A DNA stretch of 64,000 bases from Ensifer oleiphilus. Its GTDB lineage: Bacteria > Pseudomonadota > Alphaproteobacteria > Rhizobiales > Rhizobiaceae. The notes under the pieces were generated by a model, which saw nothing but the letters and a program-made list of their open reading frames with translations, made no database searches and was not told the DNA's origin. The stretch is taken from NCBI RefSeq assembly GCF_013371465.1, contig NZ_JABWDU010000002.1:971666-1035665 (forward strand). Reading direction: 5' to 3'. The position numbers and the translations under genes are program-made. The first letter of the stretch is position 1, and each line of letters opens with the position of its first letter. Below are positions 20,126 to 58,240 of the stretch, piece after piece.

Positions 20126-21415
20126 CTATTCCTCTCTGAGGCCGTAAAGCTTGCGGCGGAAGGCCGCCTTGTCTTTGAGATATGTCCCGGTCAGTGTCGC
20201 AACAACATATTCCCTGAACTTTTCACTGTAACGCTCGTAGGCATCATAAAACCCCTGCTTGTCGAAGACGAAGCGGGAGACGAAGTCGCGCGGAACGAGC
20301 TGGGCGATCAAACGGTTGACCAGCCACTGGTCGGGATGAGTGGGCGATGCCCTCACCAGCATGAAGCGGTTTGCCGGGGCCACATCCTGCATCCGGATGC
20401 TGCCGGTCGTCTGCACGGCACGCAGCATTTCCTGCAGAAATGGATAGGCACCGTCGCTCGCGACAAGCGCGGCGTTACGATGCATCCAGGTCTGCAGCCA
20501 GATCCGGTCGACCCGGGCGAGATCCGTCGTCGGATCGGCATCGTTTATGAGCCCACGCACGATCATGTCGGCGCGATGCTGGTAGAGCCCTGAATCCTCG
20601 ACCCACGACGCCTGCGGCAATTGCAGCCGCTTCGTCGAAGCAAGGAAATCGTAGATTCGGGCGTGATCGTCGATCGAGATGTAGCTCACCTGCCAGGGCC
20701 GCGACCGGCGAAAACCGGGCACGGACGGATCGCAGATAACCGTCGTCGTCTTGTCGTCGAGGAAGACATAGACGCCGCCGAAATGATTGGCCCAGAAGGC
20801 ATCATGGCGGAAGACCAGCTGATCGGGCACCAGCGCATTCTGGCGGATATCCCCTGTCACCTTGGCCAACTCGACCATGCGGTTGAGCATCTCGTCGTCT
20901 GTCCAGGCTGTCGGCACCTTCTTCAGCCGGTCGACGAGACCGCGCAGTTCGGCCGCCTTGCCCAGCATGTCTTCGGCCGAAAGCACCCGGAAGCGCACTT
21001 CATTGATCGAGAGGAGGTCGTCGATATCATCGACGATCGAAACCGAATCCTCGATCTCGCCGTAGAGCGCATCCTTGATCGTCACCGCGTTGATGGCGCG
21101 GCTGTTGGCGTTGAAGAACTCGTGCATCAGCGCCGCCGTGTTGGAAAAGCTGGTGTGCACCACCGGCAGCTCCGCCTGGTCCGGCGTCATGATGATGAAG
21201 CGGCGGTTGACCCGGTTCGGGTCGAGATAGTCGCGATCGCCAAGTTCGTCGGCAATCTCGGGCGAAAACCCGGTCATGTCGATGCTGAAGCGCGTGAGCG
21301 CTGTCGGACGCAGGCCAAAGCCCTCAAGCGCCTTGTTGTAGCGCGCGATCAGGTGCGGCTCGGAAATTTCCAGCAGTCGTCCATAAATGAGCTCGGCTTC
21401 GAGAAGGCGTTTCAT
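20126..21415 (-). CDS. DUF6638-type protein of the AAA+ cluster
   Basis: A 429-residue soluble protein, MKRLLEAELIYGRLLEISEP onward. No enzyme motif or membrane segment is evident. It has several Asp-rich loops and segments such as RRFIIMTPDQAELPVVHTSF and FGGVYVFLDDKTTTVICDPS. I recall this as DUF6638, which in Rhizobiales occurs with DUF2333 and a AAA ATPase. Here it is separated from the ATPase gene by the DUF559 unit and follows it on the same strand. Role unknown; by context part of a multi-protein assembly. Confidence 0.7.
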   Translation of the reverse strand: MKRLLEAELIYGRLLEISEPHLIARYNKALEGFGLRPTALTRFSIDMTGFSPEIADELGDRDYLDPNRVNRRFIIMTPDQAELPVVHTSFSNTAALMHEFFNANSRAINAVTIKDALYGEIEDSVSIVDDIDDLLSINEVRFRVLSAEDMLGKAAELRGLVDRLKKVPTAWTDDEMLNRMVELAKVTGDIRQNALVPDQLVFRHDAFWANHFGGVYVFLDDKTTTVICDPSVPGFRRSRPWQVSYISIDDHARIYDFLASTKRLQLPQASWVEDSGLYQHRADMIVRGLINDADPTTDLARVDRIWLQTWMHRNAALVASDGAYPFLQEMLRAVQTTGSIRMQDVAPANRFMLVRASPTHPDQWLVNRLIAQLVPRDFVSRFVFDKQGFYDAYERYSEKFREYVVATLTGTYLKDKAAFRRKLYGLREE

Positions 21416-21493
21416 GCCCGCACCTCTCCCGTGGCGATATCGCCAAGTCGCTCGACTTTATCGAGCTTGTGTAGGCCGAACAGACGTCCTCGT

Positions 21494-21533
21494 CCCCTCT
21501 CCCCGCTCGCGGGGAGAGGGTTAGGGTGAGGGG
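21494..21533. repeat. Left inverted copy of a REP-like palindrome flanking the DUF559 gene
   Basis: A palindrome of two 12-bp arms (CCCTCTCCCCGC, TC, GCGGGGAGAGGG; 21495-21520) is followed by a TTAGGGTGAGGGG tail pointing into the unit. It is the inverted counterpart of the copy at 21961-22000, with about three differences over 39 bp. Confidence 0.85.
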
Positions 21534-21547
21534 CAAATCGCCATTGC

Positions 21548-21955
21548 TCAGTCATGGCATTCGTCCGCTGGAATGAATGTCAAATCCAATGTCCTCACTT
21601 CACCCGTCAACCGCTTCTCCAGAATTGCGACAACCGTGTCGAGGACTGCTTCGCGGTCCTTGAATACCTGCGTATTCCAGAAGCGAACGACGCTCCATCC
21701 ATTGGCGACCATGTACATATCGCGAATTGAATCGCCACTCCTATTCGCGTGCTGACGACCATCGACTTCGACGACAAGATGGTGATCCCGACAGGCGAAG
21801 TCAGCAAAATAGCGACCTATCGGAAACTGTCGCACGAACTTGTAACCGTTGAGCCGCCGGGCTCTGAACTCCAACCACAAAATTGCTTCTGCTTCGTTGT
21901 CCGAGCGGCGCAGAAGGCGTGCACGTTCGGTGGCGCTTTCGTTTGCTCCTCTCAT
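21548..21955 (-). CDS. DUF559 endonuclease-like protein
   Basis: A 135-residue protein of the DUF559 family (Vsr/restriction-endonuclease-like fold). The expected pattern is clear: E22 in NEAE, NGYKFVRQFPIGRYFADFAC with D52, and VVEVDGRQHA with E63 and D65. Together these give the PD-(D/E)XK-type metal centre. It sits alone between two inverted REP-like repeats and breaks the cluster of unknown genes. The ATG at 21955 is only 6 bp inside the right repeat and the stop 15 bp inside the left repeat, so gene and repeats form one compact unit of about 507 bp. The biological role of DUF559 proteins is not known to me. Confidence 0.85.
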   Translation of the reverse strand: MRGANESATERARLLRRSDNEAEAILWLEFRARRLNGYKFVRQFPIGRYFADFACRDHHLVVEVDGRQHANRSGDSIRDMYMVANGWSVVRFWNTQVFKDREAVLDTVVAILEKRLTGEVRTLDLTFIPADECHD

Positions 21956-21960
21956 GCCGG

Positions 21961-22000
21961 ACCCTCACCCTAGCCCTCTCCCCGCTCGCGGGGAGAGGGG
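21961..22000. repeat. Right inverted copy of the REP-like palindrome
   Basis: An ACCCTCACCCTAG tail, then the 26-bp palindrome (21974-21999). The tail points inward to the DUF559 gene, mirroring the left copy. Confidence 0.85.
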
Positions 22001-22070
22001 ATGACCTCGCACGCTGCGGTCGACCACGGCGCAGAAAGCAGACCAAAGGAATCGTGGCTTACAAAAGACA

Positions 22071-23987
22071 TCACCCTTGCCACCGCCCGTCGCGTTTCAT
22101 CGCCTCGATCTCGCGGATCGCCTTTTCGCGCTGGCGCTCGCGGCGGATGATGTCGGTGACGGCGGCATCGTCGGATTTATCGGTGTAGCGGAACTCGCTG
22201 TCGGCGTAGCGGTTGATTTCCTGCAGCACCATCTCGATGGTGATCGGGCCGCGCAGCGCCTCGATCATCGCTTTCTTCTCGTCGTAACCCTTGTGCATGA
22301 ACGAGCCGGCATCCTTGAACCAGTCGTCCGGCAGTTCGACGTCCATGGCCCTCAGCTTGACGGCGTCGGTGATGTTCTTGATCGCCCGACCGGTAAAGCG
22401 CGGCTCCGCTTCCTTGATCATGTGCAGATAGGCGCCGACGTCGGCAAGCGTGGCAAGCGCCCCCTTCTCCTTCTGGTATCGCTCCCAGACGGAAACGAGG
22501 CCCTCTTCCTGCGGCCGCGAATGCGCCTCGTAGGATTGCGACACGGCGCGCTTGATCTCCTGTCCCTCAAACAGCGCGTGTTCGCCGAGCGGGATCTTGT
22601 GGTTCTTGCCGACCAGCAGCGCGAAGATGTCGATATAGTCGTCTTCCGTCTGCGGCCCGTCGACCAGCCAGCGGGCACCGGCGCGCTGTCTGAGCGCGTC
22701 ATCGACATTCTCAGGATAGTTGGAGAACATGCCGAAGGTGCAGTTGCCGCGAACGACCGTCGAGGCGCCGGCGAAGCTCTCCATCAGCACCGCCGTCACC
22801 TCGTGCTGGCCGGCCGATGCCCGGTCGTCGGAGCGCTTGGCCGCAACCTGGTCGACATCGTCGATGGTGCCGAAGCCGATGGCGCGCGGGTTGATGACGT
22901 TGTTGACGAACTCCTTGCAGTTCTGCCCCGATTTGCCCTGATAGGACGAAATCTGGTCGACGCCGAAGTTTTCGTAATGGAAGGCGTAGCCGGCGATCTC
23001 GCAATATTCGTTGAGCATGCCGGCGAGCATCTGGATCAGGATGGTCTTGCCCGTACCCGGCATGCCGTCGCCGATGAAGGTGAAGAGGAAGCCGCCAAGC
23101 TCGACGAACGGGTTCGCCTGCCGGTCGAAATCATAGGCCATCAGCATCTTGGCAAGCTTCAGCGCCTGATACTTGGCGATGTGGTTGCCGATGATCTCTT
23201 CCGGCTTCTTGAAGGTCATGACCAGCGGCTTGCGCTTCTGGCCGGGTGCGACGTCGAAGCCGTTGAGCGTGAAGTCGTCCTGGTCGAGCCGGATATGCAC
23301 ATTCTCGAAGCTCTGCAGGCCGGTAAAGCGCCCCTTGCGCGCAATCAGCCCTTCGATGGCGACGCGCGAAAAGGCGCGGGCACGCGCCGTCAGCGCCAGG
23401 TCGTCGGCCGCACCTGAAATGCTGCGGTCGAGCGCTGCGATCAGCCCCTTCAAGGCATCCTGCGGCGTGTCGAACAGGAAGTCCGGCTCGACGGCATCAT
23501 CGACCGGCTCGCCCTCGCCCGAGAGCGTCGCGCCGAGATAGGCGGCCAGCGTGAACGCGGAGATGTAGGCAGAGGCGTTGAGCAGCGCCTTGAACTGATT
23601 GGCGTCCTCGCCGGCAAGCGGCGCAGTCGCATTGCGCGCCTGCAGCTGTTCGAGGTTCGTCTGGCGCGCAAAGACGTCGGCAACAGCCAGCGCCACCTGG
23701 ATGCCGCGGCGGGTCCGGTAGAGCACGGCGTGTTGCGCCGGCGACAGCATCGGGTCGCCCTGCCGCACCGCCTGGACCGTGCGGGTGAGCTCGACCTCGC
23801 GGGTACGGCGCTGGCCGCCGGTCGAAACCGTCGAGACGAACCGCCGTCCGGTCCCGGCGAGCGGGGCGCCGGCCGGGCCCTCGTCGCGCTCGAGGATCAC
23901 CAGCTTGGTCACCAGCCCCTGCGCGACCGCCTGGTGCCTGGCGATATCGTCTTCGTGCAGCGTCGTCAGCCCGGCATTGAGTGTCAT
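22071..23987 (-). CDS. AAA+ ATPase of unknown system
   Basis: A 638-residue protein. An N-terminal part (about residues 1-250) has no recognisable domain. A AAA+ module follows: Walker A GDGMPGTGKT at 306-315, Walker B GTIDDVD with D376/D377, a sensor-1-like Asn423 in FGMFSNYPENV, and an arginine-finger-like DDALRQRAGARW near 430-440. A charged helical tail ends the protein (RRERQREKAIREIEAMKRD). The start at 23987 lies 2 bp after the upstream gene's stop, giving tight coupling; 88 codons open further upstream lie inside that gene and read as unlikely protein. It is probably the motor of the cluster. Substrate unknown. Confidence 0.85.
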   Translation of the reverse strand: MTLNAGLTTLHEDDIARHQAVAQGLVTKLVILERDEGPAGAPLAGTGRRFVSTVSTGGQRRTREVELTRTVQAVRQGDPMLSPAQHAVLYRTRRGIQVALAVADVFARQTNLEQLQARNATAPLAGEDANQFKALLNASAYISAFTLAAYLGATLSGEGEPVDDAVEPDFLFDTPQDALKGLIAALDRSISGAADDLALTARARAFSRVAIEGLIARKGRFTGLQSFENVHIRLDQDDFTLNGFDVAPGQKRKPLVMTFKKPEEIIGNHIAKYQALKLAKMLMAYDFDRQANPFVELGGFLFTFIGDGMPGTGKTILIQMLAGMLNEYCEIAGYAFHYENFGVDQISSYQGKSGQNCKEFVNNVINPRAIGFGTIDDVDQVAAKRSDDRASAGQHEVTAVLMESFAGASTVVRGNCTFGMFSNYPENVDDALRQRAGARWLVDGPQTEDDYIDIFALLVGKNHKIPLGEHALFEGQEIKRAVSQSYEAHSRPQEEGLVSVWERYQKEKGALATLADVGAYLHMIKEAEPRFTGRAIKNITDAVKLRAMDVELPDDWFKDAGSFMHKGYDEKKAMIEALRGPITIEMVLQEINRYADSEFRYTDKSDDAAVTDIIRRERQREKAIREIEAMKRDGRWQG

Positions 23988-23989
23988 GC

Positions 23990-25138
23990 TTAAACCTCGC
24001 TCACGACCTGGTTTCCGGAGATGACATGCACTTTGTAGTCGCCGAAGACCTGGGCCGCCTCGCCCGAGGCATAGAGCGCCTGATAGGCATCGTGCGGCAC
24101 CAGCGCGTGCTTTTCGTACGACGACACGCCCATGCGCGTGGCCTCCAGATTGTCGGTATCGATGTGGAATTCTTCCTGCGCCGGCGTCGTCGACCAGAAG
24201 CCGCGCTGTGCGGCACGTTCGGCCTTGGAAAACACTTCCTGGACGGTCCATGTCAGGAGCCAGGCATTTTCCGGCTTGCGCACCTTGGACAGGATCTCGT
24301 TGATCTTCGCATTGTTCTCGGTGATCCCGGCCGAATAGAACGGGCCAAGCACGATCCGCCGCAGCTGCTTGGGGTGAAGCTCGGGAAAATCCTTGTCCAT
24401 GTTGGTGGCGATCGTGATCGGCGTCAGCGAATAGGTGCTGTTCTTCGAGGCGAAGTCATCGAAGCGGCTGGCAAGCTCGGGATTGAGCAGGCCGCCGACC
24501 GGCAAAGGAATCTCCACCTGAGGGTTGAGCTTGCCGTCCTCGGTCACCAGCATCTCGACGATCTTCTCGGAAGAATCCTCGATCGTCGCCATGTAGACCA
24601 TCGGCAGGGTCTGAGTGCCGTCGAAGGCGCCCCAGCTCACCACGTAATAGGGCCTCATCGTCTTCGGATTGACGGCGACGCGGATCGTTTCCGGCAGGAT
24701 GAAGGGCGAAAAAATCTCGCCCTTGCCGATCTGCTCGAGATAAAGCCGCTCCGCCATGCGCGCTTGCAGCGCCTCGGGAAAAGCCTTCTGTCTCAGGATG
24801 AAATCGGCCATCTCTTCGCGCAGTGCATCTGCCGGCGGAATATCCGCAAGCCGCTTGCCCGCCGTCTGGCGGTCGTTTTCCAGTTCGAGCACATTCTGGA
24901 AAACCGGAAAGCCGCTCTCGGCCCGCGAGATCCTGAACTGGTCGACGAAGCCGATGCGGTTCTCCCAGCAGGCGATCGAGGCCTTGAGCCGGACGAGATA
25001 GGGAACGATCACCTCACCGACCACACTGTTGCGATAGAGCGGCGAATTGCGGTCGCCGAGAAACAGCTCGAGCCCGGCCAGCGCCGAATGGATCGAGCCG
25101 AAATACTGCGCAACGGCAGGGGATGCAGCGATTTTCAT
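23990..25138 (-). CDS. Hypothetical protein of the AAA+ cluster
   Basis: A 382-residue soluble protein, MKIAASPAVAQYFGSIHSAL onward. I do not recognise a family. It has a helical first part (to about 150), a likely alpha/beta middle (VAVNPKTMRPYYVVSWGAF, LPMVYMATIEDSSEKIVEMLV) and a DLHPKQLRRIVLGPFYSAG-like segment before a Trp-rich stretch (AWLLTWTVQEVFSKAER). No signal peptide or catalytic motif is evident. GGGAACGGC precedes the ATG at 25138. It lies between the coiled-coil gene and the ATPase gene on one strand and probably works with both. Confidence 0.75.
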   Translation of the reverse strand: MKIAASPAVAQYFGSIHSALAGLELFLGDRNSPLYRNSVVGEVIVPYLVRLKASIACWENRIGFVDQFRISRAESGFPVFQNVLELENDRQTAGKRLADIPPADALREEMADFILRQKAFPEALQARMAERLYLEQIGKGEIFSPFILPETIRVAVNPKTMRPYYVVSWGAFDGTQTLPMVYMATIEDSSEKIVEMLVTEDGKLNPQVEIPLPVGGLLNPELASRFDDFASKNSTYSLTPITIATNMDKDFPELHPKQLRRIVLGPFYSAGITENNAKINEILSKVRKPENAWLLTWTVQEVFSKAERAAQRGFWSTTPAQEEFHIDTDNLEATRMGVSSYEKHALVPHDAYQALYASGEAAQVFGDYKVHVISGNQVVSEV

Positions 25139-38600: not shown

Positions 38601-38630
38601 GACCCTTTCCCTGGCAACGGGGAGAGGGTC
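38601..38630. repeat. Shorter REP-like palindrome
   Basis: GACCCTTTCCC pairs with GGGAGAGGGTC around 7-8 nt. The CCCTTTCCC/GGGGAGAGGG core resembles the palindromes at 21495, 21974 and 58137, but with a different loop and one mismatch. It may also end the aminotransferase transcript. Confidence 0.5.
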
Positions 38631-58124: not shown

Positions 58125-58240
58125 CCCTGACCCTAGCCCTCTCCCCGCAGGCGGGGAGAGGGAACGCACAGGTCGCGGCGATGCCCCTCCTCCCCGTTGT
58201 GAGGGGGGAGAAGGCAGCCGGCAGGCCGGATGAGGGGCAT
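58125..58240. repeat. RIME/REP-like mosaic element between xdhA and xdhB
   Basis: A CCCTGACCCTAG tail and 26-bp palindrome (58137-58162, loop AG) of the type at 21495 and 21974, followed by a second hairpin unit bounded by ATGCCCCTC (58181-58189) and GAGGGGCAT (58232-58240). Two palindromes in ~116 bp resemble Rhizobium RIME elements. Located inside an operon. Confidence 0.75.

Follow-up and report, generated by a model that had tools for sequence, protein, structure and literature searches.

The stretch of DNA analysed here, called the window in what follows, covers 64,000 nucleotides of the Ensifer oleiphilus genome (contig NZ_JABWDU010000002.1, positions 971,666 to 1,035,665). Between the genes of an AAA ATPase and of a DUF6638 protein, it contains a small unit (21490-22004) in which a DUF559 endonuclease-like gene is enclosed by two inverted palindrome-plus-tail repeats whose tails point inward. 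The features concerned are the following.

20126..21415, minus strand: DUF6638 gene, downstream of the unit (PF20343, E 8.2e-77)
21416..22070, no strand: intergenic spacer of 655 bp between the AAA ATPase and DUF6638 genes, extending beyond the repeat-to-repeat unit
21490..21532, plus strand: REP-like repeat on the gene's 3' side (palindrome 21495-21520, tail 21521-21532 toward the gene)
21548..21955, minus strand: DUF559 (PF04480) endonuclease-like gene, 135 aa (PF04480, E 1.2e-33)
21962..22004, minus strand: inverted REP-like repeat on the gene's 5' side (tail 21962-21973, palindrome 21974-21999)
22071..24251, minus strand: AAA ATPase gene, upstream of the unit (PF00004, E 1.2e-10; open reading frame as listed, start codon unconfirmed)
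58125..58162, minus strand: solo copy of the repeat (palindrome 58137-58162; tail 58125-58136, which deviates from the pattern at 2 positions)

The two flanking palindromes are identical, each consisting of 26 nt with 12-nt arms, a 2-nt loop and hence a stem of 12 bp, CCCTCTCCCCGC. In the repeat search of the window, palindrome and 12-nt tail form a 43-nt inverted repeat whose arms are 91% complementary, and the tails stop 15 and 6 bp from the gene. With up to 3 mismatches allowed, the palindrome pattern is matched at three places of the window (21495, 21974 and 58137), and these three repeats are also the ones that match the tail pattern; no match of either is expected in shuffled sequence. 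As DNA, the 3'-side and 5'-side repeats both give hairpins of -13.6 kcal/mol (z -2.69 and -2.05, respectively), and the z values of the two flanks and of the solo copy at 58137 range from -2.0 to -2.7. The initial annotation, made from the sequence alone, had described a DUF559 gene between opposed palindrome-plus-tail repeats with inward tails and gene edges 6-15 bp away, its inclusion in a co-directional gene cluster, and a solo copy at 58137. These three claims hold: the arms are 43 nt long, the DUF6638 and AAA ATPase genes lie on the same strand as DUF559, and the solo copy is real and tailed. The variant copy that it placed at 38601 does not hold, being a degenerate palindrome without tail, which was left uncounted.

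The cluster that hosts the unit includes an AAA ATPase with a weak match to the PADLOC TRIP13 model (E 2.1e-6) and a DUF6638 protein of unknown function. A PADLOC defence system at the locus was considered and set aside, the matches being weak and inside large models only. A known RNA family was likewise rejected, the Rfam search of 21400-22100 giving no match up to E 1. In the whole genome, which measures 6.76 Mb and contains a single DUF559 gene, the exact palindrome is present in 21 copies. A looser search lists about 35 places (merged rows), among which there is one close repeat pair apart from the unit, and the seven solo copies that we inspected carry the same palindrome and tail as the gene flanks.

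The only Pfam families matched in the DUF559 region are PF04480 and PF18741. The AlphaFold (AF2) model of the protein has a mean pLDDT of 83.5, and its best match among solved folds, as found by Foldseek, is the DUF559-like protein 3hrl (E 1.8e-7), followed by the homing endonuclease I-Bth0305I (3r3p, E 3.8e-3) and, among others, PvuRts1I (E 0.02) and AbaSI (E 0.11). The nuclease had been annotated as Vsr-like, a claim which receives weak support, since the Vsr folds match poorly (1vsr, E 0.17; 1cw0, E 0.84) and I-Bth0305I is closer. The DUF559 profile also matches 3r3p by sequence (E 7.7e-4), so that a relationship to this known homing nuclease is shown by the profile and by the predicted fold. 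E23, D52, E63, D65 and H69 are among the residues that are invariant in 18 aligned proteins; we infer, in the absence of activity data, that they would be catalytic.

How general is the association of such a gene with such repeats? For each gene, the score used was that of the best inverted repeat between its upstream and downstream flanks, a score of at least 18 being taken as strong. The named set consists of the best 80 loci of a longer list of DUF559 relatives, two of which have short flanks, leaving 78 that could be scored. Forty-eight of these 78 reach 18, one through a run of N, so that the usable result is 47 of 77. None of the 308 neighbouring open reading frames of the same loci does so, including none of the 135 small ones (up to 200 aa), and in a second control, 400 kb of genome G084, the result is 0 of 279. 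At the lower threshold of 15, the figures are 51 of 77 named loci against 10 of 587 control frames. A coincidental meeting of two common repeats is rejected on the absence of expected matches in shuffles and on the 0 of 587 controls at 18 or more. A further control, which combined the upstream flank of one DUF559 gene with the downstream flank of another, is uninformative because the repeats of different DUF559 genes resemble one another (249 of 1892 such pairs score at least 15). Over all fetched loci, a strong inverted repeat surrounds 140 of 215 distinct DUF559 genes and is absent in 75. These 215 genes combine best-scoring matches, hand-picked matches, 6 orthologues of the window gene and the 80 named loci, and on account of this mixed origin the proportion of 65% is not an unbiased rate. 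The genes were taken from a profile search, a motif-based finder having missed 18 of 70 loci, and the survey has depth in Pseudomonadota only, within which the pairing is present in alpha-, beta- and gammaproteobacterial loci. Over the DUF559 tree, the flanked state changes 46 times against 62 with shuffled labels, and is far from confined to a single clade. We regard it as very likely that the association of DUF559 with inverted repeats is real.

Among the 140 downstream arms, 121 have a palindrome stem of at least 7, and in these the longer unpaired tail (8 nt or more) faces the gene in 77 arms and away from it in 27, with neither side favoured in the remaining 17. The downstream arm starts ahead of the stop codon in 80 of the 140 flanked genes, and some DUF559 reading frames end in what appears to be translated repeat (by eye also in L025, L033, L048 and L051). 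In L053, L095, L112, L116, L147 and L165, DUF559 lies within long inverted repeats of a composite kind, which consist of several palindromes and measure about 100-177 bp. Carriage by phages or plasmids as the rule can be discarded, since only 2 phage records out of 50,697 and 41 plasmid records out of 72,556 contain a relative.

The relation between repeat type and gene lineage was examined in one family, f34, of the same class as the window's genome, where 31 DUF559 genes were compared, 28 of them flanked. Among these 28, repeat similarity rises with protein identity (Mantel test, 0 of 1000 shuffles). When two DUF559 genes share a genome, their repeats are mostly dissimilar (48 pairs, mean similarity 0.34), against a mean of 0.67 for the 8 pairs from different genomes with protein identity of at least 0.6, three of which are weak cases with a repeat similarity of only 0.41-0.45. 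This comparison shows, for the one family tested, that the repeat type tracks the DUF559 lineage more than the genome; it remains possible that physical linkage alone produces part of the correlation. DUF559 is not bound to a single palindrome, the repeat types varying among DUF559 lineages.

Genome G084, sampled as 20 regions of which seven were picked for holding DUF559, has ten DUF559 matches, and six repeat types were found around seven of them. Five of the six types have further copies away from the gene within 400 kb, as singles or doublets, with 0-1 matches for the reversed-probe controls; the sixth, type C, gives only weak cross-matches in this sample and no clear copy away from its gene. 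Nine gene-free doublets of type B were inspected: their tails point inward and six are 122-123 bp long. In another genome, G055, 24 of the 29 exact palindromes are arranged as 12 pairs with a spacing of 101-104 bp (L264-L280). Their tails point outward, whereas those of gene units and G084 doublets point inward.

In Mesorhizobium, 27 loci (that of the query included) carry units 76-84% identical to one query, and their flanks fall into 10 classes, which are taken as sites. The classes rest on blastn with about 790 bp per side; strong divergence would inflate their number and shared repeats would lower it. In the query, the repeats end at 503 and 1032. In all 25 loci off the query's own site, homology starts at query position 498-511; in 23 of them it stops at 1016-1052, and in the other two it breaks off earlier, at 936 and 939, within the gene's 3' end. 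For the query's own site, 30 loci were inspected from 81 genomes searched (the counts cover these 30 only): 7 have the full unit, 7 are incomplete as loci and 16 lack the unit. The repeat core is kept in 13 of these 16 unit-less alleles, as a single palindrome, as a doublet or within other DNA, and is absent in 3. The initial annotation saw no clear target duplication at the window's unit. At the 27 Mesorhizobium junction pairs none was seen by eye, without a formal test. From this comparison, and without movement having been observed, it is very likely that the units have changed chromosomal sites.

Among 16 genomes of the window's own genus, 7 have DUF559 at the junction of the AAA ATPase and DUF6638 genes, 8 have a junction of 19 bp, and in G007 a 136-bp spacer, similar to the occupied ones, contains a single palindrome. 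The segment missing at the empty sites is broader than the repeat-to-repeat unit. On the tree of the DUF6638 gene (21 genomes, five of them outside the genus), occupancy changes 7 times against a shuffled mean of 7.1, and the DUF559 genes of the 7 occupied genomes give a tree that is in large part congruent with that of the flanks, G012 and G014 being sisters in the flank tree only. In the family, DUF6638 is matched in 33 of 61 genomes. Thirty family loci were inspected: DUF559 lies beside DUF6638 in 8 (the window counted), the junction is 178 bp or less in 14, other small reading frames occupy it in 6, and 2 are undecidable. DUF559 stands at this junction in four named loci as well (two of them from Mesorhizobium), where the repeats are of another type or one-sided; L222 and L228 have a repeat type different from that of the window's genus, and in L215, L231 and L307 repeats flank the junction DUF559 on one side only. 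The six loci with other small frames (L306, L314, L317, L321, L327 and L332) hold what we take to be, by eye and without a family search, type II toxin-antitoxin pairs, Phd/VapBC-like and HigBA-like, so that the junction seems open to several kinds of small module. The median dN/dS of DUF559 is 0.10 (21 pairs from the 7 genus genomes) against 0.076 for DUF6638, which shows that the window's gene is under purifying selection. Since occupancy is patchy, the trees are largely congruent and DUF559 stands at the same junction in other genera, the window copy is likely old, and repeatedly lost, lacked or exchanged among relatives; no recent jump is claimed.

The mobile-unit reading put forward in the initial annotation was to be abandoned if the gene were always present at this locus in relatives, without empty sites, or if DUF559 genes elsewhere lacked flanking palindromes. 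Neither is the case, as the sites without the gene and the flanked named loci attest. The reading is thus supported by comparison; movement of the window copy itself is not shown.

Do the repeats depend on DUF559, or on a RAYT? Outside the locus, the exact palindrome is commoner in the occupied genomes (18-31 copies, mean 22.4, n=7) than in the others (2-21, mean 12.6, n=9), with a Mann-Whitney p of 0.008; a phylogenetic sign test is not significant, and cannot be, with just 3 to 5 independent pairs. The seven genus genomes without any DUF559 match keep 2 to 21 exact palindromes each, and the gene is therefore unnecessary for keeping the repeats. Genes of the Y1 family (PF01797, RAYT-type) are found in none of the 16 genus genomes, on which ground a RAYT is rejected as the mover in this genus. 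A Y1 match is present in 5 of 15 genomes chosen for their DUF559 units. The Y1 loci inspected, five in all, are not enclosed by DUF559-type repeats (the search with typed arms being limited to those of G084): four have no inverted repeat above 11 and one has an unrelated repeat at 18.5.

The explanation that we favour, with moderate confidence, is that the unit is a REP-associated nuclease element, similar in its way of life to RAYT and REPIN elements and built on an unrelated nuclease. This rests on analogy, since cutting, binding and movement are unobserved; what is shown by comparison is the recurring pairing, the linkage of repeats to gene lineage, the gene-free singles and doublets, and the units at different sites that end at the repeats. 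Points that count against it are the 75 DUF559 genes without a strong repeat, the palindromes kept in genus genomes devoid of DUF559, the change of repeat type between genera at the window's junction, the outward tails in G055 and the lack of clear further copies of type C. That the DUF559 nuclease acts on its own repeat is an inference without binding or cleavage data, which we hold to be slightly the better bet. The nuclease would recognise and cut its cognate repeat, the probable signal being an extruded hairpin or the junction of palindrome and tail. The cut repeat, solo or paired, would be repaired from a unit or doublet elsewhere by means of the common repeat sequence, and the cut repeat would thereby receive a copy of that unit or doublet. 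As the palindrome at each end of the unit matches both ends of a cut solo repeat, repair would insert the gene. The state of G007, with one palindrome and no gene at the site, would result from deletion between the two palindromes. Such a cut-and-copy model would explain why units stand where relatives have repeats and why their ends are sharp, and also the patchy alleles and the lack of an evident target duplication. The homing-like copying itself is a tentative inference, for which the balance of our judgement is slightly negative.

Three rival explanations were considered, all of which we find unlikely. In the first, DUF559 is a passenger: another enzyme moves the repeats in trans and the gene is cargo caught between two of them. 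The presence of repeats in genomes without a DUF559 match, the occurrence of gene-free doublets and the Y1 matches in 5 of 15 repeat-rich genomes speak for it. Against it stand the absence of a Y1 match from the 16 genus genomes, the five Y1 loci that are not enclosed by DUF559-type repeats (within the limits of the G084-type arm search), the failure of all 308 + 279 control frames to reach the strong-repeat score, and the tracking of repeat type with DUF559 lineage. In the second, DUF559 is a host gene, a repair or defence nuclease whose repeats are terminators, insulators or tolerated insertions. The purifying selection, the long residence at the window's junction, the ability of the repeats to form hairpins and the DNA-damage phenotype of a Caulobacter Vsr-like DUF559 protein (PMC12907096) are in its favour; however, a terminator needs no inverted upstream copy, neighbouring reading frames lack such repeat pairs, and units occur at many sites with homology stopping at the repeats. 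The third, classical transposition with DUF559 as the transposase acting on both ends and the doublets as its MITEs, can point to the near-fixed length of the G084 doublets, whose inward ends are the same as in the gene unit, and to sharp-ended units in about ten flank classes, but it meets with no target duplication by eye, with a repeat core in 13 of 16 unit-less alleles, which repair or deletion at repeats fits at least equally well, and with a fold family that, to our knowledge, contains no strand-transfer enzyme.

Returning to the REP-associated nuclease element, a bolder reading can be formulated. DUF559 would be a second, independently evolved class of REP-mobilising enzymes in Pseudomonadota, which would cut its cognate palindromes and spread units and doublets by homing-like repair, thereby explaining many REP families in genomes devoid of RAYT. 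We put this forward as a possibility that the present data do not yet tip in its favour. REPs are common in bacteria, and a large, mostly alphaproteobacterial class, different from the repeats described here, has been reported without a dedicated transposase (Di Nocera 2013). A nuclease tied physically and phylogenetically to its own palindromes is a testable candidate for the spread of repeats. If the reading is true, it suggests a function for DUF559, a family named as being of unknown function, and the REP way of life has evolved with two unrelated nucleases.

It remains to compare the unit with known systems. The initial statement that no DUF559-REP partnership is known can be upheld in so far as none was found in the open-access literature searched; subscription journals and bioRxiv were largely outside this search, and an earlier report is possible. 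Vsr acts at T:G mismatches arising from deamination and is encoded beside a cytosine methylase; its likeness to DUF559 is limited to weak fold matches. The CGTC-tagged REPs, apparently without dedicated transposase and mostly alphaproteobacterial, are defined by a CGTC tag, an 8-9 bp stem starting with A-T pairs and a CCA-like tail (Di Nocera 2013, PMC3733652). They resemble our repeats as dispersed palindromes, and CGTC directly precedes the stem in 5 of the 7 solo copies inspected in the window's genome; they differ in that the window stem has 12 bp without initial A-T pairs, and in the tail. GTCATTCCCGC and GTCATTGCGAG are motifs of the CGTC repeats, and classic GTCATTCCCGC-type repeats are ruled out, a GTCATTCCCGC/GTCATTGCGAG motif being found within 250 bp at 0 of 215 DUF559 loci.

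I-Bth0305I (PDB 3r3p) belongs to the EDxHD homing endonucleases, is encoded in an intron and is aimed at one allelic site. The unit shares with it the profile and fold match. In homing, the nuclease cuts an empty allele and its gene is copied into it; for the DUF559 units, occupied, empty and repeat-only alleles exist, the cutting being inferred. The unit differs from I-Bth0305I in that the DUF559 gene is free-standing and that the candidate target is a repeated palindrome. The features of RAYTs and REPINs are described in PMC2817692 and PMC3116915, and RepRanger in PMC12306157. A RAYT is a Y1/HUH enzyme (PF01797), whereas the enzyme of the window unit is a DUF559 protein without PF01797. RAYT repeats carry a GT(A/G)G head. 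No such head is present here: neither side of the palindrome shows GTAG or GTGG in the nine copies inspected, two flanking the window's gene and seven solo. A RAYT is, according to PMC3116915, a single-copy gene, whereas DUF559 units of one lineage occupy several sites in Mesorhizobium. REPs are short palindromes present in many intergenic copies, and a REPIN is made of two inverted REPs a fixed short distance apart. Doublets were observed here in two forms, the inward-tailed type-B doublets of G084, of 122-123 bp in 6 of 9, and the outward-tailed pairs of G055, 12 in number at 101-104 bp. The likeness to RAYTs and REPINs consists in a gene between two inverted copies of a genome-dispersed palindrome with an unpaired end, repeat types bound to gene lineage, inverted-repeat doublets and long residence.
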